Positions 6,972 through 20,080 of a DNA stretch of 20,080 nt are shown here, one piece after another. The translations under genes and the position numbers were made by a program. The notes under the pieces were generated by a model that ran no database searches, was not told the origin of the DNA, and saw nothing but the letters and a program-made list of their open reading frames with translations. Source of the DNA: a virus; IMG/VR virus record IMGVR_UViG_3300013004_000242, positions 1-20,080 of that record; one strand, given 5' to 3'. Every line of letters starts with the position of its first letter. Positions within the stretch are counted from its first letter, which is position 1.

Positions 6972-7274
6972 ATGGAAATACCTAATTTTGAAAATTTTAT
7001 CAACGAAGGAAAAGTTACCATCAATAAAATGAATTTCACCATACATGTATTCAACGATACTAAAGGGTTATCTGTTCAATTTATTCCGGATAGTAAAACT
7101 CTAGATAAATTTTCAAAAAATGAAATGGTTGAATCTATTAAAACAAAACTAACCTCAGCAATGCCTAAATTTGCGGATTCTCTATATTTTGCAATAGATA
7201 ATTCAGCTGCTGGTTTAAGTTTCCGTGTTGATACATTTGAATTAAGTGAAATAATTACAAAAGCTATTAAATAA
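6972..7274 (+). CDS. Small protein with capsid-targeting-like N-terminus
   Basis: The 100-residue protein is of unknown fold. Its first 12 residues, MEIPNFENFINE, have the F-x-x-F spacing and the I-N-E site seen in T4 internal proteins, where the gp21 protease cleaves after (L/I)-x-E during head maturation. If cleaved here, about 88 residues remain: a mixed alpha/beta soluble domain. The gene starts a new transcription unit in my reading, because a TATATAATAAAA box lies just upstream. It overlaps the next gene by one base (TAATG at 7272-7276), which suggests translational coupling. Targeting to the prohead is inference; no function for the mature part is known to me. Confidence 0.6.
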   Translation: MEIPNFENFINEGKVTINKMNFTIHVFNDTKGLSVQFIPDSKTLDKFSKNEMVESIKTKLTSAMPKFADSLYFAIDNSAAGLSFRVDTFELSEIITKAIK

Positions 7275-7639
7275 TGAAAACATTCAAAGAATATCTTATA
7301 GAAACTAGCACTTTCTCTGAAGAAGAAATCAAGGCTCTTAATGAGAACCTTAAGACTGAGCTAACTGAAGAAGAAGAAGCTAAAGTAGACAAAGCTATAA
7401 AAGAATTTTGTAGTGAATACCTAGACAAAAATAAAGGAATGAAATCTTTCAATGAAGATCTAACTAATGAAGGTTTCTTGGGATCTATCTTAGGAGGTCT
7501 AACCGGTTTTGCATTGGGTTCATCGGTTGGTAAAATCATTGCAAACGTATTGGGTATTGAAAAAGGTGTGATTTTCGATCTTCTAACTAGTAGATTAGTT
7601 GGTGCTGCATTAGGTGCTGCATTAGGAAAACGTCTATGA
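7274..7639 (+). CDS. Capsid-targeting-like protein with glycine-rich hydrophobic tail
   Basis: This 121-residue protein begins MKTFKEYLIE, matching T4 internal-protein CTS (MKTYQEFIAE as I recall it) position for position in the aromatic residues and the final Glu. Residues about 14-50 are a very acidic helical region. At residues 56-66 a second similar stretch, MKSFNEDLTNE, appears. It is followed by a glycine/alanine-rich hydrophobic region (67-121, LGGLTGFALG ... GAALGAALG) that could insert into or cross a membrane and ends K-R-L. One reading is a packaged protein cut twice, freeing a membrane-active peptide. Another is a prohead core component. The gene is coupled to both neighbours, by TAATG before and ATGA after. 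Confidence 0.55.
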   Translation: MKTFKEYLIETSTFSEEEIKALNENLKTELTEEEEAKVDKAIKEFCSEYLDKNKGMKSFNEDLTNEGFLGSILGGLTGFALGSSVGKIIANVLGIEKGVIFDLLTSRLVGAALGAALGKRL

Positions 7640-8253
7640 TAATAGGAATTGACTTTTCAATTAATAGTACTGCCGTATCTATAAACGACGAAGGTAAATA
7701 CACACTTTTCTCATTCGTTCCAAATTTCCAATCAGGTAAAGCGGCATTCCGTACTCATGATGCAATTGACAAAATTGTAACTATTGTTAGTTATGAAAAG
7801 ACGGCAAATACCAAAGATAGTCTAGAGGATCAACGAATAAAACTTCGTAATGCCAATCGTTTATCCGACCAAATCATTGAACATATTAGACCTTACTTAG
7901 ATAAAGCAGAATTTATCAATATAGAAGGTTATTCATTTGGATCTAAAGGAAATTCCTTTATCGATCTAATTACCTATAATTCATTTCTAAAAGTAAAAAT
8001 TCTACAAATCTGTGGAGAGAAGACTTGGGTTTGGCCACCTAAATCTATTAAGAAGATGTATACCGGTAATGGTAATGCATCAAAATGTATGATGGTTACC
8101 CGTTTCATGGAAGATTCTAGTCCTCTTAGAGATAAAATTTCTGAACTTGGATTTGTCCAAGAAGGCGAATTCGCAATCCCAAAACCTATCGATGATATCG
8201 TCGATGCGGTAGCCCTATCTAGATTAAACCCTATCACCCAATCCATCATATAA
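7636..8253 (+). CDS. RuvC-like Holliday junction resolvase
   Basis: The 205-residue protein has the RuvC/RNase H-fold layout. An opening strand GIDFSINSTAV carries the first catalytic Asp (D6). A second-strand acid, E97, lies in NIEGYSFGSKGN. The C-terminal helix PIDDIVDAVALSRL carries D186/D187 and D190. This acid set is the expected two-metal site for cutting four-way DNA junctions made during recombination and replication. T4 itself uses endonuclease VII (gp49) for that job, so a RuvC-type enzyme would be the alternative in this lineage. It could also trim branched DNA before packaging. It overlaps the gene before it by ATGA (7636-7639). Substrate specificity is not visible from sequence. 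Confidence 0.7.
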   Translation: MIIGIDFSINSTAVSINDEGKYTLFSFVPNFQSGKAAFRTHDAIDKIVTIVSYEKTANTKDSLEDQRIKLRNANRLSDQIIEHIRPYLDKAEFINIEGYSFGSKGNSFIDLITYNSFLKVKILQICGEKTWVWPPKSIKKMYTGNGNASKCMMVTRFMEDSSPLRDKISELGFVQEGEFAIPKPIDDIVDAVALSRLNPITQSII

Positions 8254-8274
8254 GTAGATAAAGACTGTATTTGC

Positions 8275-10104
8275 ATGAAAATTAATATCATAACTAGGCT
8301 CACTCGACCTGAGTACATAAAAGACGTATGGAAGTCGATTGAAGCTTCTCGAATAAAAGATGTTCAAATAGATTGGTATGTTATAATTGACATACTAGGA
8401 AATTTCTCTGTTTCATCGGAGATCTTTCGTTTCCTGGAAGATAAAGCGGATTCAGTTATTATTGAAAAGGGAAAACCTGATACATTCGGATATACCCTAA
8501 TCAATAAGCTAATAGATGTTTTACCTGACGATGAATGGATATACATTCTAGACGATGATAATGCAATACACTTAGATTTTTTCCAAACCGTCAAAGATCG
8601 AGTAAACAAACCAGGTATCTGGGTATTCGATCAATTAGTGGAAGGAAAAGACTTCACTGGTGTACATATCAGAGAAGCTAATATAGAAAATATGAGATGG
8701 CAAGGAGTTGACGTTGCCCAGTTACTTATACACAAAGGCTCAATGAATCCTCATAGATTCCACTCTCATTATAGTGGAGATGGATATTTCATAGATGCGA
8801 TTAAAGCAGACAAACCAGAAGTATTCAATTTTATCAACGAAACTCTTACTCATTATAATTACTTTCAAAAACCCAAGCTCAATAAAAAACTTCCAAGAAT
8901 CTTATTGATACATGACCAAGATGTTGAGCTTTTATCTAACAACCCTCCTTATTTTGAATGTAAAGAACTTACCGTTAAACGTTGTGAAGCTTATGATGAA
9001 AAGGTTGTTTCTGAATTTAACCCTGATTGTATAGTTACTATCGGTGGTGATTGGTCAGATTATCCACAACTTTCGAGTTCATCATTTGACTTTAAACAAA
9101 GATGGTTACATTTTTCTGAATACACTCCAGAAATAGGAGAAGAAGCCTATCAATGTGCAACATCATATATCCTTAATAGAAAAGATGATGAACCTCTTTT
9201 AAGTATCATCACTCCTATTTACAATACCGGAGATAAGCTAAGAAGAACTTACAACTCAATCAAATCACAAACCTACACAAATTGGGAATGGGTAATTGTA
9301 GATGATTCAACTGATGAATATACCACTCGATTAGCTAAAGAAATAGAATCAGAAGATCCTAGAGTAACCGTGTATCGAATACTTCCTATTAGTGGTGGAA
9401 TTATTGGTGAAGCTAAATATCGAGCATTCATGCTTTCTCGAGGAGAAATCTTAATGGAAATGGATCATGATGACGAACTTCACCCAGAAGCAAATGAATA
9501 CATCGTTAAAGCTTACAGAAAATATCCTGATGCCGGTTTCTATTACTCTGATTGTGTTGAGATAAATGAACAACATGAATCTTTAACTTATGGACCAGAT
9601 GGAACATGGGCTTTAGGTTATGGTAAATATTATGACTTTACTCATAATGGAAGAGAATACAAATCCGTCGATCAACCAAACATCAATCCACTTACAATAC
9701 GTCACATCGTGGCAGTTCCAAATCACTTTCGTGCATGGCGAAGAGATGTTTATTTAGCAATAGGATCGCATAATAGAAGACTATCAATAGCCGATGATTA
9801 TGAGTTAATTGTTAGAACTTTCTTACATACCAAAATGGTACACATCCCAAAACCTCTTTACTTCCAATATTATCATGGAGGAAATTCTCAGGATGATGGT
9901 AATGCTAGAGCCGACATTCAAAGAAGAGTAAGATCCATTTCAGTATTCTACAATTGGGAGATACGTAATCGTTTTAAAGAACTAGGAGTAGAAGACTGGG
10001 CTTTTGTTGATACTAACTGGCCTTGGTACGAAAACCCTAGATTCGGTGAGGAAGAGAATTATGTTAATTACTTATTAGATATAAGTGAGAATGAAGGAGA
10101 ATGA
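8275..10104 (+). CDS. Two-domain glycosyltransferase (GT-A fold, GT2-like C-terminal domain)
   Basis: The protein has 609 residues. Residues 1 to about 200 look like a first GT-A domain with the strand YILDDDN (D93-N96), a DxD-like metal site. Residues about 205-305 are a linker domain of Rossmann-like strands (RILLIHD, CIVTIGGD). Residues 307 to about 560 are a clear GT2 domain: PLLSIITPIYN, VIVDDST, the metal-binding DHDDE at 397-401, and ADDYEL as the probable catalytic-base motif. Such enzymes transfer sugars from nucleotide sugars. Targets here could be phage virion proteins, DNA or host glycans; the sequence does not say. The stop at 10102-10104 lies inside a 10-bp tandem duplication. 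Without that duplication the frame would continue for 20 more codons, so the C-terminus may be truncated. Confidence 0.8.
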   Translation: MKINIITRLTRPEYIKDVWKSIEASRIKDVQIDWYVIIDILGNFSVSSEIFRFLEDKADSVIIEKGKPDTFGYTLINKLIDVLPDDEWIYILDDDNAIHLDFFQTVKDRVNKPGIWVFDQLVEGKDFTGVHIREANIENMRWQGVDVAQLLIHKGSMNPHRFHSHYSGDGYFIDAIKADKPEVFNFINETLTHYNYFQKPKLNKKLPRILLIHDQDVELLSNNPPYFECKELTVKRCEAYDEKVVSEFNPDCIVTIGGDWSDYPQLSSSSFDFKQRWLHFSEYTPEIGEEAYQCATSYILNRKDDEPLLSIITPIYNTGDKLRRTYNSIKSQTYTNWEWVIVDDSTDEYTTRLAKEIESEDPRVTVYRILPISGGIIGEAKYRAFMLSRGEILMEMDHDDELHPEANEYIVKAYRKYPDAGFYYSDCVEINEQHESLTYGPDGTWALGYGKYYDFTHNGREYKSVDQPNINPLTIRHIVAVPNHFRAWRRDVYLAIGSHNRRLSIADDYELIVRTFLHTKMVHIPKPLYFQYYHGGNSQDDGNARADIQRRVRSISVFYNWEIRNRFKELGVEDWAFVDTNWPWYENPRFGEEENYVNYLLDISENEGE

Positions 10105-10113
10105 AGGAGAATT
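10087..10113 (+). repeat. 10-bp tandem duplication at the 3' end of the glycosyltransferase gene
   Basis: GAGAATGAAG occurs twice in tandem (10087-10096 and 10097-10106) and is followed by GAGAATT. The TGA stop of the glycosyltransferase falls in the second copy. Since 10 is not a multiple of three, gain or loss of a copy changes the reading frame. Confidence 0.9.
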
Positions 10114-10174
10114 ACCTAGTAACTTACTAGTACTGCCTGAAGAACTATATTATTTCCTCGATCACCTTAGATAA
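10091..10174 (+). other. Out-of-frame coding remnant or 27-residue ORF after the glycosyltransferase
   Basis: In the frame one base away from the glycosyltransferase, ATG at 10091 opens a short ORF that ends at TAA 10172-10174. It reads ENEGE and then LPSNLLVLPEELYYFLDHLR. The same ENEGE ends the annotated glycosyltransferase. Removing one 10-bp repeat would fuse these residues to the enzyme without interruption. The composition (Leu, Pro, Glu, aromatic residues) is protein-like. It could be the displaced natural C-terminus or a coincidental open stretch. Confidence 0.45.
10116..10130. repeat. 15-bp palindrome CTAGTAA-C-TTACTAG
   Basis: This is a perfect inverted repeat with 7-base arms and a single central base. 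The centre is too tight for a full hairpin, so it resembles a two-fold protein-binding site. It lies about 120 bases before the LamG gene and inside the out-of-frame remnant. It may be an operator or chance. Confidence 0.3.
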
Positions 10175-10223
10175 AGGTTATATGTAATTTTGATACGGTC
10201 AGATTCAGTATTTTTATATTGAA

Positions 10224-10232
10224 TATATAAAG
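10224..10232 (+). promoter_or_regulatory. Possible promoter box TATATAAAG before the LamG gene
   Basis: An AT-rich block (10209-10248) ahead of the ATG at 10249 contains TATATAAAG, a variant of the TATATAATAAAA box, 16 bases before the start. This is the only sizeable non-coding gap (about 75-145 bases) before the adhesin gene, so a promoter is plausible. The match is weaker than at the three exact boxes. Confidence 0.3.
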
Positions 10233-10248
10233 TGAATTAAGATATAAT

Positions 10249-11295
10249 ATGCCAACAACCAGAACATTTGCTTATAATACAGGATCTACATTTGCCGGTG
10301 CTGATCAGGTTGGCTTTGTTGCTGCTGGAACACCAAATGCAGGTTTAACTGCGACTGGAGTAACTTGGCGATCTGGTCCGGATGAAGATCCTGGATATAT
10401 TATTGCCTATCCTACGTCTGGTCCTAGAACTGCAGGTGGTGGAACAGAAATAATATCTGTACCGGATATAGGTTATAAACGATCTTTATCTAAGACAGAT
10501 AATTCATTTATTGCATTATCTAATCAAGTAGGAAACCAATCATTTGCATCTTTATATTCTGCCAGAACCTGGTTAAATTCTAATGGATATTGGACATCTT
10601 GGCCAGGAATAGTTTGGTCTGGATTATCATTATATTTGAATCCTTCTAGTAGTATGTCTTATTCAGGAACAGGAACTTCTTGGTATGACCTGAGTGGAAG
10701 TAATTTAACATTGACCTCATTCGGTACTCAAACTCCATTAACGACAATGGGAGGAGCTTCCGGATTTAGTTTCAATAACTCAGGTTATTGGCAGTGTACT
10801 TCTAATTCAAGTTTAGTTGATCTAGGAGGAGATTGTACTGTAATATTATGGATATATGGAGATCAAGGAGGTTCGAGACGAACAATATTCGAAAAGGCAG
10901 GGACCATATATCAATCATATGAACAGGAATTAGCAATGACGTGGGAGGTTGGATCCGGATTAAGTTATTATAGTAGATATAGTAATTATGATTATGCTGG
11001 AACTGAAGCAACTGTTGCAAATACCTGGACAATGATATCAATAAAAATGTCAACCGGGAAAACTTCCGCTGCTAGAACTGGATTTCGAAGCAAAAATGGG
11101 AGCGCTTGGATTCAAGATTATGTTTCAAGAAGTAGCACCGCATTAGTTGCAGCCGGTGATTTACGAATTGGTACAGGTTATTCCGGAACCTGTTATCAAG
11201 GAGGTATAGGCACAGTTCTATGTTACAATAGAATGTTATCCGATGCCGAAATACTTCAAAATTTTAACGCAACTAAATCAATTTACGGACTATAA
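10249..11295 (+). CDS. LamG/concanavalin A-like domain adhesin (tail fibre or appendage)
   Basis: The 348-residue protein has an N-terminal, Gly/Thr-rich, beta-structured part (1 to about 120). From residue 125 to the end it is a concanavalin-like LamG domain. Hallmarks are LSLYLNP at the start, GTSWYDLSG, a beta sandwich containing CTVILWIYGDQ, and the closing YNRMLSDAEILQNFNATK. Such domains bind glycans and are frequent on phage tail fibres and decoration proteins. The upstream glycosyltransferase and this sugar-binding protein may be linked in surface interaction, but that is inference. No signal peptide or membrane segment is seen. It lies apart from the main structural block. Confidence 0.75.
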   Translation: MPTTRTFAYNTGSTFAGADQVGFVAAGTPNAGLTATGVTWRSGPDEDPGYIIAYPTSGPRTAGGGTEIISVPDIGYKRSLSKTDNSFIALSNQVGNQSFASLYSARTWLNSNGYWTSWPGIVWSGLSLYLNPSSSMSYSGTGTSWYDLSGSNLTLTSFGTQTPLTTMGGASGFSFNNSGYWQCTSNSSLVDLGGDCTVILWIYGDQGGSRRTIFEKAGTIYQSYEQELAMTWEVGSGLSYYSRYSNYDYAGTEATVANTWTMISIKMSTGKTSAARTGFRSKNGSAWIQDYVSRSSTALVAAGDLRIGTGYSGTCYQGGIGTVLCYNRMLSDAEILQNFNATKSIYGL

Positions 11296-11298
11296 AAT

Positions 11299-11445
11299 AT
11301 GAAAAAATTTATAAATATGGATTTTGATGGCACCAAATGGTGGGTTGAATATAACGAAGATGGAATAGATAAAAAAGATCTATTTGATACTAAATCAGAA
11401 GCTACGGCTTTTTATGAAACTTTTTTTAATACACCGCACAATTAA
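11299..11445 (+). CDS. Small 48-residue protein
   Basis: A short complete ORF runs from ATG 11299 to TAA 11443-11445, three bases after the LamG stop. It begins MKKFINMDFDGTKWWVEYNE and continues with a charged stretch ending in an aromatic-rich helix (TAFYETFFN). It has the look of a small compact beta-hairpin plus helix protein, and Trp-Trp at residues 14-15 is distinctive. TATAAAAT immediately precedes it. I do not recognise the family. Good codon structure and tight spacing support it as real. Confidence 0.55.
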   Translation: MKKFINMDFDGTKWWVEYNEDGIDKKDLFDTKSEATAFYETFFNTPHN

Positions 11446-11475
11446 ATTTGGCATAAAATAGAAGATAAATATATT

Positions 11476-12102
11476 ATGAAACATATACAACATTTCGATG
11501 ACTTCTTAAATGAAGTAAAAAATGAAGACCAACCTAAAAAGGAAAGACGTGTCGGACATACTGTAAAAAGAGGATATTACAAATCAGATCCACCAGATAT
11601 TGGTCTTTATTCTAAAGGAGGAAGAGATGCAATCAAAGGAACTGGATATGCCAATAAAGAAAAAGCCGAATTTACCATAAAGGAGCTAGATAAACTTATG
11701 GATAAAGGAGAAAGAGTTTGGGCTATGTCTATTGCAACCACAATGGAATCTCGTGCTAAAAAACACCAACATCAAACAGATGGAATGCGTGATGCTATGA
11801 AGATATTCCGTGAATGGATCGATAAAAACAAGAAAAGCGAATCCATTGAAGAAGCTGAAAGTAAAACTCTATTCCATCCCGGTGAAGGAGATAAAGTTGA
11901 AGGTACCGGATATGCTGATGCGGAAGCGGCTAACAAAACAATCGCCATCATTAATAAGTTAAAGAAAACTGATCATAATCATGCTATGGCAATTGCCACT
12001 ACCATGGAAAACCGAGCTAAAACTCACAAGTACAGTACTCCTGATATGAAAGAGGCAGCTAGAATATTTAGAGAATGGATCGATAAAAACAAGAAATCAT
12101 AA
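11476..12102 (+). CDS. Tagged protein with two copies of a helical domain
   Basis: The protein has 208 residues. The N-terminus MKHIQHFDDFLNE shows the aromatic-x-x-aromatic plus L-N-E pattern of a capsid-targeting sequence. Residues about 14-50 are a basic linker. Two copies of one domain follow, at 55-121 and 143-208. Both begin GTGYA, contain AIATTME-RAK, and end IFREWIDKNKKS. The copies have clearly diverged, so the duplication is not recent over most of its length. The domain is helical and unknown to me. A basic helical pair like this could bind nucleic acid, and if packaged could be a DNA-associated internal protein. That is inference. It overlaps the next gene by one base (TAATG). Confidence 0.65.
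   Translation: MKHIQHFDDFLNEVKNEDQPKKERRVGHTVKRGYYKSDPPDIGLYSKGGRDAIKGTGYANKEKAEFTIKELDKLMDKGERVWAMSIATTMESRAKKHQHQTDGMRDAMKIFREWIDKNKKSESIEEAESKTLFHPGEGDKVEGTGYADAEAANKTIAIINKLKKTDHNHAMAIATTMENRAKTHKYSTPDMKEAARIFREWIDKNKKS
11638..12099 (+). repeat. Internal domain duplication within the tagged protein
   Basis: Two direct copies encode 67 and 66 residues (11638-11838 and 11902-12099), separated by 63 bases. They share GTGYA, AIATTME, and the ending FREWIDKNKKS. The last block is nearly identical in DNA (GAATGGATCGATAAAAACAA in both), while the rest has diverged. Confidence 0.8.
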
Positions 12103-12299
12103 TGAATTCATCTTGGCTATATAACAGAAACCGAATAATGAGACAGCAATCAGAAGAGATGTTGCAATTACAACATCAAATAGCTAATTCTGAGCAAGTC
12201 TCTACTGATCTACCTATTGAGCAAACAATGTTACTTTTATTGAATGACGATACAGTAACCACTCTATCTATAGGAACTGGTTTAACTGGACCTGCATAA
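12102..12299 (+). CDS. Small hypothetical protein (65 residues)
   Basis: The ATG at 12102 overlaps the previous stop by one base, which supports translation of this short frame. Residues 1-30 are a polar, Gln-rich helix (MRQQSEEMLQLQHQIA). Residues 35-65 contain a hydrophobic Leu run (TMLLLLNDD) and a Thr/Gly-rich end. No family is recognised. It could be a short assembly or adaptor protein. It is the last gene before the gp32 leader. Confidence 0.5.
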   Translation: MNSSWLYNRNRIMRQQSEEMLQLQHQIANSEQVSTDLPIEQTMLLLLNDDTVTTLSIGTGLTGPA

Positions 12300-12489
12300 T
12301 TTTTTGAAACTAAAAATCTCAAGTGAAGTGAGATACATATAATAACTATAACATCCAAAAAATGTTATAACCAAGTAAGTAGAACAAGCTTAGATTAGGT
12401 GAAACTAATTTAATCCGGAGTAAGTAAGTGAATCTGTTATTTAAGTAAGTTCATATTAAATAAACAACGTAAATTAAAAAGTAAGTAAA
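12300..12489 (+). promoter_or_regulatory. Structured leader of gp32 with AAGTAAGT repeats (candidate autoregulatory operator)
   Basis: These 190 bases have no gene. Three short hairpins are visible. One has arms 12316-12321/12329-12334 with a 7-base loop. One has perfect 8-base arms TATAACAT/ATGTTATA at 12347-12354/12362-12369. One has 5-base arms ATTAG/CTAAT at 12394-12398/12405-12409. Interleaved are four copies of AAGTAAGT, at 12373, 12422, 12443 and 12479, the last ending just before the ATG. TATAATAACT at 12338 could be a promoter box. T4 gp32 represses its own translation by binding a folded leader (pseudoknot) plus nearby unstructured A/U-rich repeats. A similar arrangement here is likely but unproven. 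Confidence 0.55.
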
Positions 12490-13419
12490 ATGGAAAACAA
12501 TTTCGACATCTTCAATCTGTCTTTGGATGATTTCAAAACAGAAGAAAAACCAAAATCTGGTCAGGATCTTTACAAAACAGATCCTAAATTATCTAAAGAC
12601 TCTATCTACAGAGCAATCATTCGTTTCATACCGAATGTTAAGAATCCCAAAAAATCTTTCGTTAAAAAATTCTCATACTGGTTAGAAGACGCAGGTGGAA
12701 ATGGCTTTTACGTAGATTGTCCTTCATCAATTGGTGACAAATCAATTATCCAAGACACATTCTGGAAATTATTCAAATCTGAATCTGCATTCGACAAGAA
12801 ACAAGCAGAAAAGATTAAACGTAAAGAGTACTACTACTCTCTTGTTTATATCATGAAAGATCCACAACGTCCAGAATTCGAAAACACCGTACAAATTCTT
12901 CGTTACCCTCGTGCCGTTAAGAAATTAATTGATGCACAAATCCAACCAGATGTTACTGATTTGGAAATGGGAACAGAACCAACTAACGTTTTTGACTTCT
13001 TTGAAGGTAAAGACTTCTCATTAAAAGTTACAATGAAAGGTGGTTATTGGAATTATGACGAATGTAAATTCGCTCAAGCTAAAACTCCAATCGCTGTAAG
13101 TGGTGTTAAAATGGATAACAATGCTGAATCTCGTAAAATGATTATGGATCTTTACGAAGGTGCTGCTGATATCGAGGTTTATGACTTCAAACCATGGGAT
13201 GAAGATATGCGCCAAAAAGTAAATGGTGTATTAGGTGAAATTACAGGAAATCCTGGTTCTGCTTATAATGCGGTATCTTCTCCTGCAAAATCTGCTCCAG
13301 CCCCACAACGAACCGAATCTGCTCCTGCTTCAATGAATGAATCAATGCCAGAAACTACTCAACCAGCAAATAACGATGAAAACATCGAAGATTGGTTGAA
13401 AGAATTTGATATTAAATAA
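12490..13419 (+). CDS. 32: gp32-like single-stranded DNA-binding protein
   Basis: At 309 residues it is close to T4 gp32 (301). The core OB-fold region is recognisable from YRAIIRFIPN through KRKEYYYSLVYIMKDP (110-125), which matches the DNA-contacting strand of gp32, to LEMGTEP..VFDFFEGKDFSLKV and YDECKFA. The tail from about 255 is low-complexity Ala/Pro/Ser. It ends in an acidic stretch (NDENIEDWLKEFD), as in gp32, where the acidic tail contacts other replication proteins. The zinc ligands of T4 gp32 (His plus three Cys) are missing: only C77 remains in that region, so the core is probably metal-free. It coats single strands in replication and recombination with the primase, UvsY and UvsW downstream. 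A long structured leader precedes it and a terminator follows. Confidence 0.85.
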   Translation: MENNFDIFNLSLDDFKTEEKPKSGQDLYKTDPKLSKDSIYRAIIRFIPNVKNPKKSFVKKFSYWLEDAGGNGFYVDCPSSIGDKSIIQDTFWKLFKSESAFDKKQAEKIKRKEYYYSLVYIMKDPQRPEFENTVQILRYPRAVKKLIDAQIQPDVTDLEMGTEPTNVFDFFEGKDFSLKVTMKGGYWNYDECKFAQAKTPIAVSGVKMDNNAESRKMIMDLYEGAADIEVYDFKPWDEDMRQKVNGVLGEITGNPGSAYNAVSSPAKSAPAPQRTESAPASMNESMPETTQPANNDENIEDWLKEFDIK

Positions 13420-13448
13420 TCAAATATCTTATTAACACATATTCAACT

Positions 13449-13474
13449 AAGGGGTTCTACGGGACCCCTTTTTT
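13449..13474 (+). terminator. Intrinsic terminator after gp32
   Basis: AAGGGGT (13449-13455) and ACCCCTT (13464-13470) form a perfect 7-bp stem, extendable inward by a G-U and a C-G pair, with a small TACG-type loop. The stem is followed by a T tract through 13474. It lies 29 bases after the gp32 stop and would insulate the highly expressed gp32 gene from the primase operon. Confidence 0.85.
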
Positions 13475-13476
13475 CT

Positions 13477-13486
13477 TATAATAAAT
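13477..13486 (+). promoter_or_regulatory. Possible promoter box TATAATAAAT directly before the primase gene
   Basis: TATAATAAAT sits between the terminator and the primase ATG at 13487 with no spacer. It matches the core of the TATATAATAAAA boxes elsewhere. If used as a -10 element, the transcript would start inside the gene, so either it only forms an A-rich start context or expression relies on read-through. Confidence 0.3.
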
Positions 13487-14560
13487 ATGGAACTAAAAGA
13501 ATCTTCAAAGAATCATATCATATCGTTGCTGGATTCAATTCTACGTGAACAATTTACAGGAGAAAAGGCAAATGCCAAGCCTTACCTAGATCGTATAAAT
13601 TTTGCTTGCCCTTATTGTGGCGATTCACATGGTGGAACTTTTAAGAAGCGAGGAAATATTTATTGGAAAAATCTAAAATTCCACTGCTACAATGGTGGAT
13701 GTCCTAAACCACATACAACCGTAGTAGATTTTCTTAAAGATCATGGAAAATCCTTCAATCAGAAAGATGAACTAATCCATGTATTAGATTTTATTCAAGC
13801 AAATACCATTGTTGTACCGACTAAAGATTATCTTCAAGTAGGTATCTTTAATGAATTACGTAAAGGTGCAATTCCTTTAGCTGAAGTAAAATCTAAACTT
13901 AATCTAGTTGAACCTCATCGAAATATGCGTATTGAAGCTTATTTGAAAGCTCGATTCATGCATTACAAAATGGAATTTTTTGCATACGATCCAAAAAAAG
14001 ATCAGCTATACATATTTAATTTAACCCCAGATAAACAACATGTGTTAGGTTGGCAATGTCGTAATTTCGGTAAACGAACCGATGAAGCAAAATATGTAAG
14101 TTATAACATGGAAAAAATGCATCTACTTGTTCGAGAAAAACTACTCGAAGGTAGTGGTGAAACCGTAATGCGTTTGAATACTTTATCTCTATTCTTCAAT
14201 ATAATGTTAACCGACTTTACCAAAACGGTTACTGTGTTTGAAGGTCCTATGGATGCATTCCTTTGTAAAAATGCAATAGCACTTTCGGGTATTGATAAAC
14301 CTTTTGATATGTTTAATGAAATGCCAAATATGCGTTATCTATTTGATAATGATTATATTGGCAGAAAGAAAATGGAAGAAATACTGAAGAAAAAACGATC
14401 AGTATTTATGTGGAACAAACTTGTTAGAGATTATAAAGTTCGTGAAAAGGTGAAAGATCTACAAGATCTATTCGCTTATTGTTGGAAAACTAAGAATGAA
14501 GCAATTAAACATTATGGAGAATATTTTACAGACAACCCTCTCGATATCAGATCTGTATAG
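13487..14560 (+). CDS. 61: gp61-like DNA primase
   Basis: The 357-residue protein (T4 gp61 is 342) has an N-terminal zinc ribbon with C41-x2-C44 and C67-x4-C72, including CPYCGDSH and FHCYNGGC. A linker and catalytic core follow, including a VLGWQCRNFG strand (compare the ESFQGRA region of gp61). The Toprim domain has EGPMDA at 252-257 and DND at 287-289, the expected metal-binding acids. It makes RNA primers for lagging-strand synthesis, acting with the replicative helicase (gp41 in T4), which is not in this window. The stop is followed after one base by the next start. It probably heads a run of coupled genes through UvsW. Confidence 0.85.
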   Translation: MELKESSKNHIISLLDSILREQFTGEKANAKPYLDRINFACPYCGDSHGGTFKKRGNIYWKNLKFHCYNGGCPKPHTTVVDFLKDHGKSFNQKDELIHVLDFIQANTIVVPTKDYLQVGIFNELRKGAIPLAEVKSKLNLVEPHRNMRIEAYLKARFMHYKMEFFAYDPKKDQLYIFNLTPDKQHVLGWQCRNFGKRTDEAKYVSYNMEKMHLLVREKLLEGSGETVMRLNTLSLFFNIMLTDFTKTVTVFEGPMDAFLCKNAIALSGIDKPFDMFNEMPNMRYLFDNDYIGRKKMEEILKKKRSVFMWNKLVRDYKVREKVKDLQDLFAYCWKTKNEAIKHYGEYFTDNPLDIRSV

Positions 14561-14561
14561 A

Positions 14562-14774
14562 ATGGAAAATGAAGCTAAAAAAATTGAAGATTTTGAGGAT
14601 CTAAACCTCAAAGCACCGGTAGATTTTACCGCATCTGAGAAATTAGTGTCCAAAGATCTAGGTAATCAATTAGAGATTCCAATCATAAAATATAAAGTTC
14701 GTCCCAAAAATAAAGGGAAAGCCATCGAAGTTAAACTTGGCAAAAAACAAAAGTCAACAAATAATCTATTTTAA
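14562..14774 (+). CDS. Small hypothetical protein between primase and UvsY
   Basis: I choose ATG 14562, which begins one base after the primase stop and gives 70 residues. An in-frame ATG at 14496 would add 22 residues but would overlap the primase gene by 65 bases. The protein is highly charged. An acidic N-terminal half (MENEAKKIEDFEDLNLKA) is followed by a Lys-rich end (KYKVRPKNKGKAIEVKLGKK). No family is recognised. Its place between primase and UvsY, with TAATG coupling to UvsY, suggests a small replication or recombination accessory, but nothing in the residues proves it. Confidence 0.55.
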   Translation: MENEAKKIEDFEDLNLKAPVDFTASEKLVSKDLGNQLEIPIIKYKVRPKNKGKAIEVKLGKKQKSTNNLF

Positions 14775-15220
14775 TGACAACTGAAGAACAAAAAGTCGAA
14801 ACCCTAGATACCGCATTGACATCCGAACGAGATGATTTTTCTGCAAAAATACTTGATCTAATCAAGAACATAAATGATGTATCTAAGATTGCAGAGGCTC
14901 AAGTTCTTATGTTATCTTATCGTCATATGATGGTAGATAAAATAACCAAATATAGAGTAGCCCTTTATAAAAAGAAAACCTCTGATACTAATTATCGAAA
15001 ACTTCGATATGAATATTACAAAACACAACACGATGTTAGATTAGATAATCGAGAAATTAATCAATACATAGATTCTGATATGGCACTTAGAATTCGCCAA
15101 ACTGAATTATTAGAATCTCAAGTAAACTTCTTTCAGCAATGTGTAGAAACACTTGATAAAATGGGGTTCTCCATTAAGAACCGAATTCAAATCGAGGAAA
15201 TTAATCAAAGAGCATATTAA
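14774..15220 (+). CDS. uvsY: UvsY-like recombination mediator
   Basis: The 148-residue protein is almost entirely helical and close in size to T4 UvsY (137). The C-terminal half lines up with UvsY by eye. A D-x-L-x(6)-L stretch is followed by a Phe-containing helix, then LDKMGFSIKNRIQIEEIN, corresponding to the UvsY ending LDAIKSRGFAIKHIQDM. The middle holds the basic, Tyr-rich helix region (KLRYEYYKTQHD) comparable to the DNA-binding part. UvsY helps load the UvsX recombinase onto gp32-coated single strands. Its position directly before uvsW, as neighbours in the same region of T4, supports the call. Overlaps of one base at both ends (TAATG) indicate coupling. Confidence 0.7.
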   Translation: MTTEEQKVETLDTALTSERDDFSAKILDLIKNINDVSKIAEAQVLMLSYRHMMVDKITKYRVALYKKKTSDTNYRKLRYEYYKTQHDVRLDNREINQYIDSDMALRIRQTELLESQVNFFQQCVETLDKMGFSIKNRIQIEEINQRAY

Positions 15221-16743
15221 TGGAATGGAACCTAACACATAACGACAAAATACTTACTCTCGTTTCAGCGACTGAAATGGAGATTGAGCAACTTAATATA
15301 ACATTTGAACGTGAAGTAGCAAATGCCAAATGGGATCCTAGAGTAAAAAAAGGATGGTGGAATGGTAAAATCTCATACTTCAAATCTAATCGATATCTCC
15401 CTGCTGGTTTATGGAATGAGCTAATGGAGCTATCTAGACAATATAACTTTGAATTAAAAATCAATGGTATTGAACGTAAGTTTGATCGTGATATATCACT
15501 AGAAGATTTGCAGCAATGGGTAGACGAACGTTGGGCAGATGCTAAAATGAAACCTAGAGATTATCAAGTTGAAGCCGTATTCAATATCATTAAGTATCAA
15601 AATTGTTTAGCTGAACTTGCTACATCTGCTGGTAAGACTCTAATTACCTATATGGCAATTGCATATTTGTTAGAGACTAAGAAATCTCATAAGATTCTAA
15701 TGATTGTTCCTACTGTCGATCTAGTTGTTCAAGGCACTGAAGACTTTTATCAATATAATGAAGAATCATGTAGATTGAAATTAGATATTCAACAAATATT
15801 TGCCGGATCGATTATTCGAGAAAAATCAAATGTGGTCATAGGAACCTATCAATCACTAGTCAAAAAAGACAAATCCTATTTTGATGAATTTGATACAATT
15901 ATTGTTGATGAAACTCACAAAGCTAAATCCGCATCTATTAAAACTATTCTTGAAAAATGCGAAAATGCAACAAGAAAATTTGGTTTATCTGGAACTATTC
16001 CCAAACCTGGAACTTTAGATAGATTAACTCTTATGGCATACACCGGCCCAGTTATATCAAATGTCCGAGCAGATTTCTTGATAGAACAAGGTCATATCAC
16101 TCCATGTGAAGTATATGTTGTTGAAATGAATTATGCTTCAAACGAAGTTAAAGAAGGATTCAAAACTCTGTTTCAAAGATCTGAAGATGATCGTAAGAAA
16201 CTTCTTAACATGGAACAGAATTATGCAATTCAATCCGAAGAGAGACTAGATTTTATTACTGATCTGATTCTAAAGAACATGAAAAACTCTCTAGTTCTTT
16301 TTTATCGTATTGAATATGGTCAAAAGATATACAACAAGCTAAGAGATAAAACCGATCGTCGAGTACTTTACATAGATGGAGGAATTGATAAAGATCTTAG
16401 AGAAACTCATCGTGAAGCATTAGAAGAGGGTGAAGGTAAAATTATGATTGCATCCTATGGTACCTTCTCTACTGGTATTAATGTAAAAAATATCCATACT
16501 GTATACCTAACAGAATCCTTCAAATCTGAAGTCATTATTCGACAATCTATTGGTCGAGGTCTAAGAAAACACGAAGATAAAAAGAAGCTACTTATAGTTG
16601 ACTTCGTGGATGATTATAGATCAGGTAAATTCCAAAACTATCTGTACAAGCACTCTCTAGCTCGACAAGCCATCTATGATGAGCAAAACTTCCCATACAC
16701 GATAAAAACAGTAGATCTTCAGAGAATATATAATAAAAAATAG
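15220..16743 (+). CDS. uvsW: UvsW-like superfamily 2 DNA/RNA helicase
   Basis: At 507 residues it is near T4 UvsW (503). An N-terminal domain (1 to about 105) contains WDPRVKKGWWNGKISYF and NRYLPAGL, matching the UvsW N-terminal DNA-binding region. The helicase core has a Q-like site (PRDYQVEAV, about 112-120), Walker A ATSAGKT (134-140), Walker B DETH (230-233), motif III LSGT, a YGTFSTGINVKN segment, and motif VI QSIGRGLRKH with GRGLRKH at 445-451. UvsW drives branch migration, regresses forks and unwinds R-loops to switch from origin- to recombination-dependent replication. Coupled to UvsY by TAATG. The end of the gene (16727-16738) also contains a copy of the TATATAATAAAA box. Confidence 0.9.
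   Translation: MEWNLTHNDKILTLVSATEMEIEQLNITFEREVANAKWDPRVKKGWWNGKISYFKSNRYLPAGLWNELMELSRQYNFELKINGIERKFDRDISLEDLQQWVDERWADAKMKPRDYQVEAVFNIIKYQNCLAELATSAGKTLITYMAIAYLLETKKSHKILMIVPTVDLVVQGTEDFYQYNEESCRLKLDIQQIFAGSIIREKSNVVIGTYQSLVKKDKSYFDEFDTIIVDETHKAKSASIKTILEKCENATRKFGLSGTIPKPGTLDRLTLMAYTGPVISNVRADFLIEQGHITPCEVYVVEMNYASNEVKEGFKTLFQRSEDDRKKLLNMEQNYAIQSEERLDFITDLILKNMKNSLVLFYRIEYGQKIYNKLRDKTDRRVLYIDGGIDKDLRETHREALEEGEGKIMIASYGTFSTGINVKNIHTVYLTESFKSEVIIRQSIGRGLRKHEDKKKLLIVDFVDDYRSGKFQNYLYKHSLARQAIYDEQNFPYTIKTVDLQRIYNKK
16727..16738 (+). promoter_or_regulatory. Putative late-type promoter box TATATAATAAAA inside the end of uvsW
   Basis: This is an exact copy of the 12-mer at 6947 and 18170, here overlapping the last codons of uvsW (R-I-Y-N-K-K). 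It lies 15 bases before the ATG at 16754. Two adjacent stop codons (TAG TAG) follow. Retention of the same 12-mer inside coding sequence at the same distance from the next gene argues for a signal. Confidence 0.5.
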
Positions 16744-16753
16744 TAGACTCATA

Positions 16754-16954
16754 ATGGCTATACTAAAATTCAAACAATTTCGTAACGTAAGAAATGAAGC
16801 TAAAGTTCTTAAGCTAAAAGAGAAAGCTTCTAAGGCGTTTAAAGAAGCATATTATGCCAAGCTCGAAAACTACGGAGCTAAAGATGCATCTGAATTGAAT
16901 GACGAACAACTTACTCAATTCCTAGAAGAATTAAAAACCTACCGAAACCAATAA
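16754..16954 (+). CDS. Small helical protein with capsid-targeting-like N-terminus
   Basis: The 66-residue protein begins MAILKFKQFRNVRNE, with F6-x2-F9 and a Glu at position 15. The residue two before that Glu is Arg, not Leu or Ile, so the protease site is less canonical than in the neighbours. The rest is Lys/Glu/Ala-rich helix (16-45) and a second amphipathic helix (LNDEQLTQFLEELKTY). It could be a prohead core or internal protein. The family is unknown to me. A TATATAATAAAA box is 15 bases upstream, and the next gene starts 6 bases after its stop. Confidence 0.55.
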   Translation: MAILKFKQFRNVRNEAKVLKLKEKASKAFKEAYYAKLENYGAKDASELNDEQLTQFLEELKTYRNQ

Positions 16955-16960
16955 ACCATA

Positions 16961-18187
16961 ATGGCAGAATTACAATCCCTAAAGACTATATTCCAGAGAG
17001 AAGGCTTAGAATTTATCCAAAAACTTTTCAACAATTTTGTGATTGTTTCGGAGAAAGTTGGTGGGACTAGATTTGCATTCGAAAAAACTGAGAATGGATT
17101 GACTTTCTTTAAGAAGGAAGGAAAAATCACTAAGGTTGATAGATCTTTATCTCAGCTATATGAACAACCAATAAGATACATCGAGACTTTATCAAAAGCT
17201 ATTATCAAAGAACTTCCGGAAGGTTATCGCTATGGATTCAGATATTTCTTAAACACAAAACCCGAGACTATTCAATATGATAATATGCCTCTTAATGGTC
17301 TAATACTGACAGATGTTCAACGAGTATCTGATGGTAAAATGATTGAGGATCCAAAAATTTTACAAAAGATATCCGATCTTTTAACGGTTCAATCTCCGCC
17401 AATTATTTGGTATGGTAAATTAGATGATAAACAGAAAGATGATCTTTTGACGTTTATTAAGACTCCTGAAAGTGAATTAACTTTACTTTTCAAAACGAGC
17501 TCATTTACGAAATATGTAATTTCCATCTTAAATCCCAAACTTAAGAAAACTGCTTTAAACAACGACTTAAGTAAACCCATCGATTCAATTATATTCAAAT
17601 TCTTATCCGATGAAAATCGTGAAACGGTTTCTGCTAAAGTAATAGAACCTATTATTGCAGAAATCAATAGAGATACGAAAGTAGATAGAGAGCCAACCGA
17701 TATGTATGGAATTATTCTATCTGATATCGTTGAGTTTCTTAAGATCACTGGTCTTAATCAATACACTCTAAAAGAAACCGAAGAGGAAGACAGATTCCTT
17801 GAGTTAATGTGTCTTATTTTCAATGAATATATTAAGAAGAACGAATACAAATATCAAGGAGTAGAAATGGATCCTTTGTCTTTTAATGATGTTCCTCAAT
17901 TTGATCTTAATATCGGATTCATTATCAATCAAACTACTCGTGAATACTTAGAGAAATCCAAGATAAACAAAATCATCTTCCGTATATTGGTATCTTCTAT
18001 CATCAAACCCAAGAAGAAACCAACCGGAACTCTTACCGAACTTCTTCTAAGAGACCTAAAAGACATATCTACCAAAATCACTAATAAAATTCAAGGTAAA
18101 AATGACCCAATCAAGAATGAAGGTCTAGAGACCTTTGAAGACTTCCTAAAAAGAAAACAGGAAGGGAAATATATAATAAAAGACTAA
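16961..18187 (+). CDS. Possible nucleotidyltransferase/ligase-like protein
   Basis: The protein has 408 residues. Residues 26-60 read VIVSEKVGGTRFAF ... LTFFKKEGK, which resembles motif I (K-x-x-G, here K32-V-G-G35) and the following beta strands of the DNA/RNA ligase nucleotidyltransferase superfamily. GYRYGFRYF further on could be motif III, and DSIIFKF at 208-214 could be a degenerate motif IV. The Asp or His usually found before the final Gly of motif I is replaced by Gly, and a clear motif V is not seen, so activity is uncertain. The C-terminus carries LETFEDFLKRKQE, which resembles the N-terminal tags of neighbouring proteins but sits at the other end. The last codons contain a TATATAATAAAA box. 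Without the ligase idea this is a hypothetical protein. Confidence 0.4.
   Translation: MAELQSLKTIFQREGLEFIQKLFNNFVIVSEKVGGTRFAFEKTENGLTFFKKEGKITKVDRSLSQLYEQPIRYIETLSKAIIKELPEGYRYGFRYFLNTKPETIQYDNMPLNGLILTDVQRVSDGKMIEDPKILQKISDLLTVQSPPIIWYGKLDDKQKDDLLTFIKTPESELTLLFKTSSFTKYVISILNPKLKKTALNNDLSKPIDSIIFKFLSDENRETVSAKVIEPIIAEINRDTKVDREPTDMYGIILSDIVEFLKITGLNQYTLKETEEEDRFLELMCLIFNEYIKKNEYKYQGVEMDPLSFNDVPQFDLNIGFIINQTTREYLEKSKINKIIFRILVSSIIKPKKKPTGTLTELLLRDLKDISTKITNKIQGKNDPIKNEGLETFEDFLKRKQEGKYIIKD
18170..18181 (+). promoter_or_regulatory. Putative late-type promoter box TATATAATAAAA before the gene at 18195
   Basis: This is the third exact 12-mer copy, within the last codons of the upstream gene (K-Y-I-I-K-D) and 13 bases before the ATG at 18195. 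The spacing equals that of the copy at 6947. Confidence 0.5.
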
Positions 18188-18194
18188 ACTTCAT

Positions 18195-18452
18195 ATGAAA
18201 GCTATTCCAGAATTCAACAAATTTAAAGAAGATGTAAATGAAGCACATGATAATGTCGAACATTACATGTTCTTTAAGAATATAGAAAATATCAAAGTAA
18301 TGATAGATGAATTGTTACAAATGAATCCTACTCAAGTAGATATGCTTTTGAACAATGGACATGATTGGGCAGCTGATCATATCACATCATCTAAAGACGA
18401 TATTCAAGAAGTTACCGACTTTCTTAAAAGTGAAATAAAACAACAATCATAA
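18195..18452 (+). CDS. Small protein with capsid-targeting-like N-terminus and HDWAADH motif
   Basis: The 85-residue protein begins MKAIPEFNKFKEDVNE, with F7-x2-F10 and a V-N-E site at 14-16. The remainder is helical and includes NNGHDWAADHITSSKDDIQEVTDFL, a pattern I associate with small uncharacterised phage proteins. The His/Asp cluster (H59-D60 and D64-H65) could bind metal, but nothing proves it. It follows a TATATAATAAAA box and is 15 bases before the next gene. Packaging into the head is inference from the N-terminus. Confidence 0.6.
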   Translation: MKAIPEFNKFKEDVNEAHDNVEHYMFFKNIENIKVMIDELLQMNPTQVDMLLNNGHDWAADHITSSKDDIQEVTDFLKSEIKQQS

Positions 18453-18467
18453 AAATATCAATTTAAC

Positions 18468-18824
18468 ATGTCACAAGATCTAAACGAAGGGACACATCAA
18501 ATAAAAAGAAAATACGGAGAATACACTGCTATTAACGTATATGAAAGAGGTCCTATCCGCAACAAAATCATTGAGTTTGTAAAAAACAAACACGTTACTG
18601 AATCTGAGCTAAAAGAATTCGTTAAGAAATTAGCCGAAGAAAGAGGTGCTGATTTTGATTCTAATAAATGGTTCAAAAGAAACGAAAGATACTTTGAGGC
18701 TTATCAAAATAGAGGTCAACAAGTTTATACTCTTTCTAAATTCGGTCAACGAGTTTATGAGTATATTGTTAAAAAAGCCGCACAAAAACAAATCAATGAA
18801 TCAATTGGTCTTTTTAAATTCTAA
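18468..18824 (+). CDS. Hypothetical protein, possible winged-helix fold
   Basis: The 118-residue protein is basic. A likely winged-helix or helix-turn-helix-like order is visible: helix (IRNKIIEFVKN), helix after VTESELKEFV, a third helix with NKWFKRNERYF, then a short hairpin (QVYTLSKFGQRVYEYI). Such a fold often binds DNA. The N-terminus MSQDLNE carries an L-N-E but lacks the paired aromatic residues of the tag, and an I-N-E lies near the C-terminus (QINESIGLFKF). Function unknown; the fold call is by eye. Confidence 0.5.
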   Translation: MSQDLNEGTHQIKRKYGEYTAINVYERGPIRNKIIEFVKNKHVTESELKEFVKKLAEERGADFDSNKWFKRNERYFEAYQNRGQQVYTLSKFGQRVYEYIVKKAAQKQINESIGLFKF

Positions 18825-18841
18825 ACAAAACAAACATAAAT

Positions 18842-19864
18842 ATGAAATTACTTAACTTTAATGAGTTTGTTACTCATTTAAATGAATCACAAGAACTTCT
18901 ATTAGAAGCTTTCAATTCTAGTATCTTACAAAGCGTTGTAACCAAACAACGTGAAGGAGGAATTGATAAGAAATTCTTCGATGTTCTCTCTAAAATAGGA
19001 GTTGCTGCCTCTGAGGTAACTAATTTAGATATTACTACTCTTGCTCCAGCCGATGCAGCTAAATATGCTGCCGCAAACCCAAACCAAATTCTAATTTATT
19101 ATTCAACAACAGAAAAACCAAATCCTTACGTATCACCAGACGGTAAATACTATTATGGAACTATTAAAGCTGATGTTCCTTTGGCAGTTGTTAAAGGTAA
19201 ATTGTTCATGGGGTTGGCTTATGATCGTTGGGCTTCTAAAGGTGGAAAAGCCGAATATAAGATAGTTGCTGGTACTGATGCTGGTACATCATTAGGTCTT
19301 GGAAATAAAGATTCTCGCGGATATGGTTCTAGTGGAATTAATACACTTAAGAAAATGGCCGATGTTTCAGATGTAGTTTATGCTATTAATCCGGATACCG
19401 TTCCATCTTCTAAAGCTCTAAAAGCAGAAAGATCAGAATCTAGAGCTGGTGCAATCGCATACAAAACAGATAAAGAATTCAAAGCGGAAAATCAATCTCG
19501 ATATGAAGCTATTCTAAGAGATCGTGCTTCTAATGAAGATATTGATAAAATGGTTGGTGATGCTATTGATACTCTTACTCAACAAATTAAAGATGCAATC
19601 GCTAAAGGTGCTAAAACTTCATACGGAGATGTTCTTATTGGTTTAAATCCTAAAGGAAGAGAAGTTAAGATGTCCGATGCCGGTCACTTAATGAGTACTA
19701 TCCTAAGAGATTATGGAACATATGCATCTGCTAAAAATGACGAAATTGAATCAGAAAAACGTCACGGTGAAACTGATAGATACTATCGTAATCGTTCAGC
19801 AGAAGCGGCAAAAGCTATTAAAGACGGTCTTAATAAAATTAAGAACTTAAATTACGCTTGGTAA
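18842..19864 (+). CDS. Tagged protein of unknown function, candidate internal head protein
   Basis: The protein has 340 residues. The N-terminus MKLLNFNEFVTHLNE has F6-x2-F9 and an L-N-E site at 13-15. A second site, L-L-E, follows at 20-22. The body (about 40-215) is mixed alpha/beta with a YYYGTIKADVPLAVVKGKLFMGLAYDRWASKGGK core and a Gly-rich loop (SLGLGNKDSRGYGSSG). The last 120 residues are highly charged, Lys/Asp/Glu/Ala-rich helices. It is the largest of the tagged proteins, so it might carry an enzymatic activity delivered to the host, as T4 Alt does, but I see no ADP-ribosyltransferase motif. Followed one base later by a DUF3008-like gene. Confidence 0.55.
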   Translation: MKLLNFNEFVTHLNESQELLLEAFNSSILQSVVTKQREGGIDKKFFDVLSKIGVAASEVTNLDITTLAPADAAKYAAANPNQILIYYSTTEKPNPYVSPDGKYYYGTIKADVPLAVVKGKLFMGLAYDRWASKGGKAEYKIVAGTDAGTSLGLGNKDSRGYGSSGINTLKKMADVSDVVYAINPDTVPSSKALKAERSESRAGAIAYKTDKEFKAENQSRYEAILRDRASNEDIDKMVGDAIDTLTQQIKDAIAKGAKTSYGDVLIGLNPKGREVKMSDAGHLMSTILRDYGTYASAKNDEIESEKRHGETDRYYRNRSAEAAKAIKDGLNKIKNLNYAW

Positions 19865-19865
19865 T

Positions 19866-20080
19866 ATGCCATCAACCTCTATTGCACAACAAAGACTTAT
19901 GGGTCAGGCTTACGCTCTCAAAACAGGAGAGCTTAAGTCTTCCGACTTAGATCCTAAATATCGTAAACAAATCGAAGATCTAGCTGATTCAATGTCCGAA
20001 AAAGACCTTAAAGATTTTGCTGAAACTTCACATAAAGGTTTACCACAAAAAGTAAAAGAAAATTATAAAATGAATAGACA
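19866..20080 (+). CDS. DUF3008-like small protein (3' end outside window)
   Basis: The frame from ATG 19866 is open to the window edge and gives 71 visible residues. It begins MPSTSIAQQRLMGQAYALKTG, the signature of small DUF3008 proteins (P-S-x-S-x-A-Q-Q-x-x-M-G-x-x-Y-A), and continues to DFAETSHKGLPQKVKEN, which matches the family's conserved T/S-x-H-K-G-L-P end. These proteins occur in bacteria and phages and have no known function. It starts one base after the preceding stop. Only a short end is likely missing. Confidence 0.75.
   Translation, partial: MPSTSIAQQRLMGQAYALKTGELKSSDLDPKYRKQIEDLADSMSEKDLKDFAETSHKGLPQKVKENYKMNR

Follow-up and report, generated by a model that had tools for sequence, protein, structure and literature searches.

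The DNA analysed here (the window) is a 20,080-base IMG/VR fragment, IMGVR_UViG_3300013004_000242, from a T4-like phage, in which several genes for otherwise dissimilar proteins begin with a similar short peptide, referred to below as the tag. The original prediction listed six such proteins with a T4-style capsid-targeting N-terminus. All six open reading frames (ORFs) begin where it placed them and their N-termini had been quoted correctly, and five of them were accepted as tagged (Table 1). The sixth, at 16754, was rejected, as Arg breaks (L/I/V)-x-E at P3, where Leu or Ile is needed, both in the window and in five aligned relatives; it gave no clear match among T4 small proteins and nothing in the PDB. 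The aromatic-x-x-aromatic core is present in all five accepted genes, with Glu at residues 10-16 and the P3 residue being Ile or Leu in four genes and Val in 18195. A strict motif, [FY]xx[FY][LIVM] followed by Glu a few residues on, within the first 22 residues, was found in 3 of the 22 window genes versus 0.09 expected (p = 1e-4), and a looser pattern in 5 of 22 versus 0.4 expected (p = 2e-5); both patterns were composed after the window tags were known, and the relatives provide the independent test.

The T4-like gene content of the window comprises a gp32-like protein, a primase, UvsY-like, UvsW and RuvC-like proteins and a tail-tube-like protein, and no near match was found among 50,697 named phage records. 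By UvsW, the closest relative was G001 (G1), an incomplete 160 kb contig with a UvsW identical to that of the window (window position = G001 position + 303), followed by G002 (G2), G003 (G3) and G005, contigs of 134-254 kb with 94% identity; G2 and G3, being near-copies of the same phage, do not count as independent. Further relatives were shorter contigs, mostly near 80%, and LR756500 (462 kb, 52%). LR756501, also compared, is 735,411 bases long (loci L125-L134 and L190-L216).

None of the five tagged bodies matched a domain at E 0.001. The N-terminus of the 7274 protein is in the exact register of the T4 internal-protein leader. Its C-terminal 55 residues (from 7472) form a conserved Gly-rich hydrophobic stretch, this C-terminal part being 59% identical in LR756500, and the TNE-GF(L/M)G ahead of it is a weaker second cut candidate, which reads T-N-E in the window, so is not L/I-x-E, and I-N-E in LR756500 only. 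The 11476 body was modeled as a low-confidence linker and two helical domains, with no fold match at E 0.001. Its relatives read MKHIQHFDDFLNE, MFLKYKEFLNE, MINLPTYEEFLFE, MKNIMDFDEFINE and MKNLKTFDQFLLE, and across eight aligned sequences only M1, F10 and E13 of the tag are invariant. Neither 11476 nor 18842 had a sequence match in the PDB or in the named phages. Relatives of 18842 carry the tags MKLYNFEEFLNE and MKDLMSFDEFVNE, and a relative of 6972 (locus L014) carries MNIIPTFDGFINE. The 18195 tag is a looser fit, with Lys behind the second aromatic and V-N-E at the cut, and among the loci compared this gene is present only in near relatives.

Table 1. Locations of the tagged genes and of other features (window coordinates unless a genome is named)
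Feature	Size	Location	Strand	N-terminus or remark
Tagged gene	100 aa	6972..7274	+	tag 6972-7007 MEIPNFENFINE, predicted cut before G13
Tagged gene	121 aa	7274..7639	+	tag 7274-7303 MKTFKEYLIE, T after Glu
Tagged gene	208 aa	11476..12102	+	tag 11476-11514 MKHIQHFDDFLNE, V after Glu
Tagged gene	85 aa	18195..18452	+	tag 18195-18242 MKAIPEFNKFKEDVNE, A after Glu
Tagged gene	340 aa	18842..19864	+	tag 18842-18886 MKLLNFNEFVTHLNE, S after Glu
Gene of the original prediction, not accepted as tagged	66 aa	16754..16954	+	MAILKFKQFRNVRNE, A after Glu
gp32-like single-stranded DNA-binding protein		12490..13419	+	PF08804 and phrog_224; T4-like context
UvsW helicase		15220..16743	+	T4-like context; served as query for relatives
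DUF3008 domain		19866..20078	+	ORF extends past window end
Leader/N-arm/lysine-tail proteins		G1 20541-20777, G3 78281-78517 (just past window end), LR756501 730457-730711, T4 18966-19130		T4 copy is gp61.1

Counts, bodies and conservation of the tag in related genomes

The original prediction suggested that the pattern be sought in the rest of the genome, and many more tagged genes were indeed found in near-identical and related genomes. Gene calls, and with them the gene starts, came from a simple codon-usage caller rather than a trained gene finder, and the same motif in protein interiors and shuffled N-termini served as controls. By the strict motif, 20 of 230 genes were tagged in G1 (0.8 expected from interiors, at most 3 in shuffles), 34 of 324 in G3 (0.9 expected, at most 4), 31 of 273 in G2 (0.9 expected), 22 of 649 in LR756500 (1.9 expected, at most 7), 58 of 985 in LR756501 (3.7 expected, at most 9) and 9 of 340 in the first 200 kb of LR756504 (1.6 expected). 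A further 52 loci of the clade had 99 tagged ORFs among 456 distinct ones versus 5.3 expected, with at least one tag at 30 loci; this count includes recurring homologous genes, and one of the loci, L011, closely resembles G3. The Glu of 130 distinct tags lay at residues 10-18, with a mode of 13, within a search confined to the first 22 residues. In the T4 control, the strict motif picked out 3 of 250 genes, namely gp61.1 and two internal proteins that we take to be IPII and IPIII; the third internal protein, presumably IPI, has a longer leader and was missed. There was no excess in PAU (0/290), P-TIM68 (0/234), Lak-A1 (2/402) or Munch (1/262 in 200 kb).

The claim that different bodies share the tag was borne out, with 131 looser-pattern tagged proteins from five sources, a set with some false positives, among them the capsid protein, falling into 96 body families. 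Alignment of 88 tagged proteins gave the N-terminal consensus MKxIxxYxxFxNE, of which K2, I4 and N are not demanded by the search pattern, and just one lone Gly beyond the tag. In a tandem array of G3 (133,186-137,603), the tag DNA was 92-97% identical in six gene pairs (the listed pairs being those with tag identity of at least 70%), with only 28-53% identity over the next 60 nt and 30-55% over the 20 nt upstream.

Among relatives of the G1 tagged genes at no more than 90% identity, the strict pattern was retained in 67 of 86 alignment rows, a count in which paralogues are included, as are rows whose match is confined to a later domain; retention by gene included 5/5, 5/5, 3/3, 23/25 and 25/28, and 0/1 for each of two genes. 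The letters of the tag drift among relatives, and the aromatics, the aliphatic residue and the Glu are mostly retained. The matching control, interior copies of the motif, yielded four cases, of which two were kept, one of them itself a probable internal tag. A faster turnover of tagged genes was considered and rejected: from G1 to G3 a relative was present for 15 of 20 tagged and 167 of 205 untagged genes (no difference), and from G3 to G1 for 14 of 34 versus 170 of 286 (p = 0.045), a comparison confounded by the incompleteness of G1. T4 late and sigma-70 promoter words showed no clear excess over shuffles, with a sigma-70 deficit in LR756501.

The residue after the tag and the S77 protease fusion

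T4 internal proteins carry a capsid-targeting sequence, described as an N-terminal propeptide of 10-19 residues on unrelated mature bodies (PMC9026906, PMC3012670, PMC12373910); according to PMC9026906, its residues 4 and 7 target, residues 8 and 10 permit processing, and gp21 cleaves it after L/I-x-E. We examined the residue that follows the tag Glu, which is not part of the tag search. It was Ala, Ser or Gly in 74 of 132 tags, compared with 440 of 3004 other N-terminal Glu (p = 1e-26) and 18 of 137 interior motif copies (p = 6e-14). Because this residue is skewed as at a cleavage site, the tags look cleaved.

A gp21-type protease, for which the original prediction had proposed a search, was found in the near-identical 160 kb relative and in five other records. 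PF03420 (Peptidase_S77) exceeded its curated cut-off of 27 bits in 6 of 11 records (G001, G002, G003, G005, G006 and LR756500, 44.7-50.7 bits), the five records without a match being fragments of 19-55 kb; LR756501 and LR756504 scored below it (24.1 and 24.7 bits). In G1 the protease gene stands between those for the portal (PF07230, Portal_T4) and the Gp23 capsid protein (PF07068); the 6.3 kb ahead of the portal hold nine genes, four of them tagged, and a tagged RimK-like gene lies 3.7 kb past the capsid gene. These findings, together with the leader register, fit a T4-style, gp21-removable leader on unrelated cargo, as had been proposed, and we consider it highly probable that the shared N-terminus is a T4-type capsid-targeting propeptide whose bearers are packaged and cleaved.

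The protease ORF is long, with 577-663 residues in 29 of 30 distinct relatives (220 in the remaining one) and 764-807 in LR756504 and LR756501. Its GEL[DN]HP and SSR motifs (H71 and S126-S127-R128) are invariant in 29 fusions and align with T4, and their His and Ser are presumably the catalytic residues of the S77 protease. The AlphaFold2 model (mean predicted local distance difference test, pLDDT, 59) consists of a protease domain, a 171-residue helix (pLDDT about 70) and a helical end domain, and the best Foldseek matches of the protease domain were to T4 gp21 (5jbl, E 2e-6). Residues 22-350 of the fusion align, weakly and at 26% identity, across the separate protease and scaffold genes of Salmonella phage Munch, and because this one match spans both genes we read the second half of the ORF as a putative scaffold. 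The fused region had no phmmer match to T4 gp22.

Outside N-termini, the core [FYW]xx[FYW][LIVM]xE was by count commonest in the protease fusion ORF, with 14 copies in LR756501 (next protein 7), 11 in LR756504 (next 2) and 3 in each of G3 and G1 (next 1); the 2 copies in LR756500 tied with two other proteins. Runs of 12 copies in LR756501 and 10 in LR756504 keep an exact 14-residue spacing, and typical units, YSEYIAE and YAEYIAE, are close to the T4 leader YQEFIAE. By a ten-residue tag profile, the fusion ranked fifth in G1, whereas in G3, in LR756500 and in the first 200 kb of LR756501 it did not reach the top six; the tag and the fusion share the seven-residue core only. A separate 207-residue protein of LR756501 (619760-620383) combines a collagen-like stretch with the scaffold repeats YAEYLAE, YQEYIAE and YSEYVAE and ends in DPYGEEDWSV.

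Leaders of other phages, cargo and host

Sphingomonas phage PAU (host Sphingobacterium) has a related portal, capsid protein and protease. We found that 19 of its 290 genes begin with MK[TSGN][LIV]xx[LM][YF]E (MKTLxxLYE), a pattern with no occurrence in 12 other gene sets (one of which is part of another), and that Ala, Ser or Gly comes next in 16 of the 19; a looser version gave 22 genes versus 2.1 expected and at most 6 in shuffles, with no similarity among the bodies. The 19 genes lie mostly at 100248-121069 (L334), several having a second LNE a few residues on. The PAU record labels gp151 as capsid maturation protease; gp142 and gp154, labeled internal capsid protein, and gp152, labeled scaffolding, carry the leader. 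PAU resembles the window clade in having a leader, which in PAU ends in L-Y-E before Ala or Ser and is also borne by annotated internal capsid proteins, and differs from it in the wording of the leader and in having protease and scaffold as separate genes. No mention of the PAU leader in print turned up, though no search aimed at it was made.

The Prevotella Lak phages share with the window clade an S77 domain (48-49% identical) and a long fused ORF, but have an acidic spacer in place of the repeats and the low strict-tag count given above. Five of 402 Lak-A1 genes begin like MNKNIKKLLESLFDD versus 0.8 expected, which is suggestive only. The protease fusion of Lak-A1 at 187878 (400 kb examined) has 584 residues with TAG read as Gln. 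By comparison of these N-termini, the leader design appears to be the same and its wording specific to each lineage. Munch has the same portal-protease-scaffold-capsid order as the clade, but its protease and scaffold are separate genes and it has no excess of the clade tag. Many head proteins of phiKZ and SPN3US are described as cut after Glu before ejection (PMC9026906, PMC5694885); unlike the clade tags, their propeptides are mostly long, with S/A-x-E in phiKZ. The bS21 phages of Bacteroidetes are reported to have a prohead core scaffolding and protease gene near the capsid genes (PMC9723584). A bS21 link for the clade was rejected: of six records checked, LR756501 alone had a match, and there was none in G001-G003, G005 or LR756500.

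A Pfam match at E 0.001 or better was obtained for 12 of 37 tagged proteins scanned singly. The tagged cargo includes a PPK2 and a radical SAM protein in LR756501, a DUF2201 metallopeptidase with a VWA domain, a leucine-rich repeat (LRR) protein and a PNK phosphatase in LR756500, and a RimK ATP-grasp protein, a glycosyltransferase and an RNA-ligase-like protein in G1; looser tags were found on a PAP2 protein (G3) and a nucleotidyltransferase (G1). A pooled PADLOC scan gave one viperin-like match, presumably the radical SAM protein. T4 has three cargo genes where the clade has about 20-58, enzymes among them; the clade also differs from T4 in that its protease is joined to a scaffold-like region in which the tag core occurs and, probably, in host phylum. 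The T4 proteins Ip1-3 are described as injected and as blocking distinct GmrSD enzymes with only the leader in common (PMC12373910), and because of this precedent we lean, by analogy and by a little, towards injection of most of the clade cargo into the host.

The word TAnnTTTG, which we take to be of Bacteroidota type, was found upstream in forward versus reverse orientation in 19 versus 7 of 89 gaps in G3, 14 versus 7 of 61 in G1 and 73 versus 46 of 363 in LR756501, but in LR756500 the counts were 26 versus 34 of 234. Among the signal peptides are some with AQ, GQ or SQ at their ends. Among the listed named records outside the huge metagenomic phages, the closest protease domain by score was that of Lak (Prevotella). 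The host of PAU, Sphingobacterium HER1398, which came from a reference center, is a member of the Bacteroidetes (PMC3738902). The Bacteroidete host of this related phage favors the suggested difference in host phylum from T4, and the host of the clade is likely Bacteroidota.

Proposed loading mechanism and its alternatives

We infer docking, cutting, packaging and injection as successive steps. As the prohead assembles, a short amphipathic helix would bring tagged proteins into its inner core, to which the two aromatics and the next aliphatic residue of the helix would bind. The S77 protease of the prohead would then cleave behind the Glu of (L/I/V)-x-E, so that the mature body stays in the head together with the DNA, and many of the proteins may be delivered into the host at infection, by analogy with the T4 internal proteins. 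The clade would have expanded this system, each genome or large contig having some 20-58 cargo genes, with lineage-specific wording and a protease fused to the scaffold. In phages whose fusion contains copies of the core, docking may work by mimicry, with the tag taking the part of a single scaffold repeat. Such mimicry, in which the cargo helix would slot into the 14-residue-repeat coiled coil of the very protein whose protease later removes the tag, is a tentative suggestion. Equally tentative is the wider proposal that in these phages of 200-735 kb the tag is a copied scaffold unit, that any gene could be made loadable by about 13 codons, and that 20-58 preloaded proteins, including enzymes, are carried into the host.

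Several observations weigh against parts of this scheme. No virion proteomics was found for these phages, and the window fragment itself holds no protease. The G1_38276 family retains the strict pattern in just 6 of 18 relatives, several of the misses having Trp as the second aromatic or an over-long start, and some tagged proteins resemble ordinary intracellular enzymes. For PAU, the internal capsid protein labels are record annotation, and the PAU and Lak patterns were composed after their N-termini were known. As to mimicry, the fusion ranks first by motif density in LR756501 and LR756504 only, T4 gp22 lacks a core copy, the PAU scaffold has no excess of the PAU leader core, and the P-TIM68 scaffold holds one core copy in a genome without tags. 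Ala, Ser or Gly follows the Glu in just 8 of 30 scaffold copies, and for this reason the repeats look like docking units more than cut sites. A rule that a scaffold without repeats implies a genome without tags was rejected, as PAU has the leader without repeats and P-TIM68 a copy without tags.

The tagged proteins might enter the prohead and be cut but mostly serve as structural core that stays in the head, like T4 gp67 and gp68, rather than as a set of injected effectors. In line with this are the tagged genes that neighbor those for portal, protease and capsid, both in G1 and in PAU, the leader on the annotated PAU scaffold, and the G1 39626 family, where 23 of 25 rows have kept the tag and 22 of these show 26-43% identity. 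The variety of the cargo (PPK2, radical SAM, metallopeptidase with VWA, PNK phosphatase, RimK, LRR) argues the other way, as does, weakly, the finding that just 2 of 34 tagged G3 genes have a relative in LR756500 versus 83 of 286 untagged ones (p = 0.003), although the same comparison for G1 (3/20 versus 64/205, p = 0.2) shows no clear difference. We consider a mainly structural role unlikely. It is more doubtful still that the motif stays uncut and acts as a docking peptide, bringing proteins to another phage structure. The core does occur inside the scaffold fusion and three times in the LR756501 619760-620383 protein, but the Ala/Ser/Gly skew after Glu in both the clade and PAU, the agreement of (L/I/V)-x-E with the known gp21 cut, and the S77 matches in G001-G003, G005, LR756500, LR756501 and LR756504 (the last two below cut-off) speak for cutting.

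Descent from one duplicated gene, or a codon-level effect at start regions with no present function, would account for the tandem arrays with near-identical tag DNA; the unrelated bodies, the conservation of motif positions while other tag letters change, and the recurrence of the design, with other wording, in LR756500, LR756501 and PAU make it very improbable. Chance resemblance of short N-termini might be entertained from the few cases in the window alone, but it is refuted by the counts, the N-terminal excess being about 6- to 37-fold in tag-bearing relatives, and its likelihood is negligible.

The principle of a packaged and cleaved cargo leader is that of T4; new to us are its scale, host group, wording and architecture, and in the part of the literature searched, huge metagenomic phages were not described as having a leader of this kind. 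The tag offers a sequence signal, from metagenomes alone, for probable virion-carried proteins of uncultured huge phages (the 58 tagged genes of LR756501, for example), and makes mostly unknown genes candidates for injected effectors or counter-defense proteins. It also points to a small, transferable address label by which proteins might be loaded into large phage heads, and the proposal is directly testable in PAU, a culturable relative.

Other short shared sequences were observed. In LR756501, 17 further proteins (e.g., 474651, 475399 and 475851) have a shorter leader of the MIKKFKLFE or MIRKYKLFE type that ends mostly in (I/L)-F-E, and 10 of them also contain a second shared peptide, DPYGEE (consensus LDPYGEE[ND]W). 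This peptide occurs in 108 copies in 93 of 985 LR756501 proteins, with 0.01 expected, 41 copies lying no more than 14 residues from the C-terminus and 22 close to the N-terminus. As 107 copies are encoded by 48 different 18-mers, it appears to be kept as protein, and it looks like a phage-wide docking peptide. It was absent from the window and from ten other genomes or parts of genomes compared, and a DNA scan found 71 stretches on 27 IMG/VR contigs.

In G1 (19563-20219), the DUF3008 frame runs on to a tag-like MNRHVPTFESFINE near residues 69-82 of 218, which may be an internal tag or begin at an internal start. Relatives of the gene at window positions 18468-18824 begin MSQDLNE-G, MEENLNE-G, MNTRQIFE-A or directly M-ARTQIKR, a possible sign of a very short, optional leader ending in a cut site. 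The small proteins at the end of Table 1 share a three-part layout, with a short leader, an N-arm copied from the capsid protein and a lysine-rich tail, and in LR756501 and T4 this leader is a tag. The T4 copy is described as lying near known anti-toxin genes (PMC9391042), and these small proteins are perhaps packaged capsid decoys or core-shell linkers.

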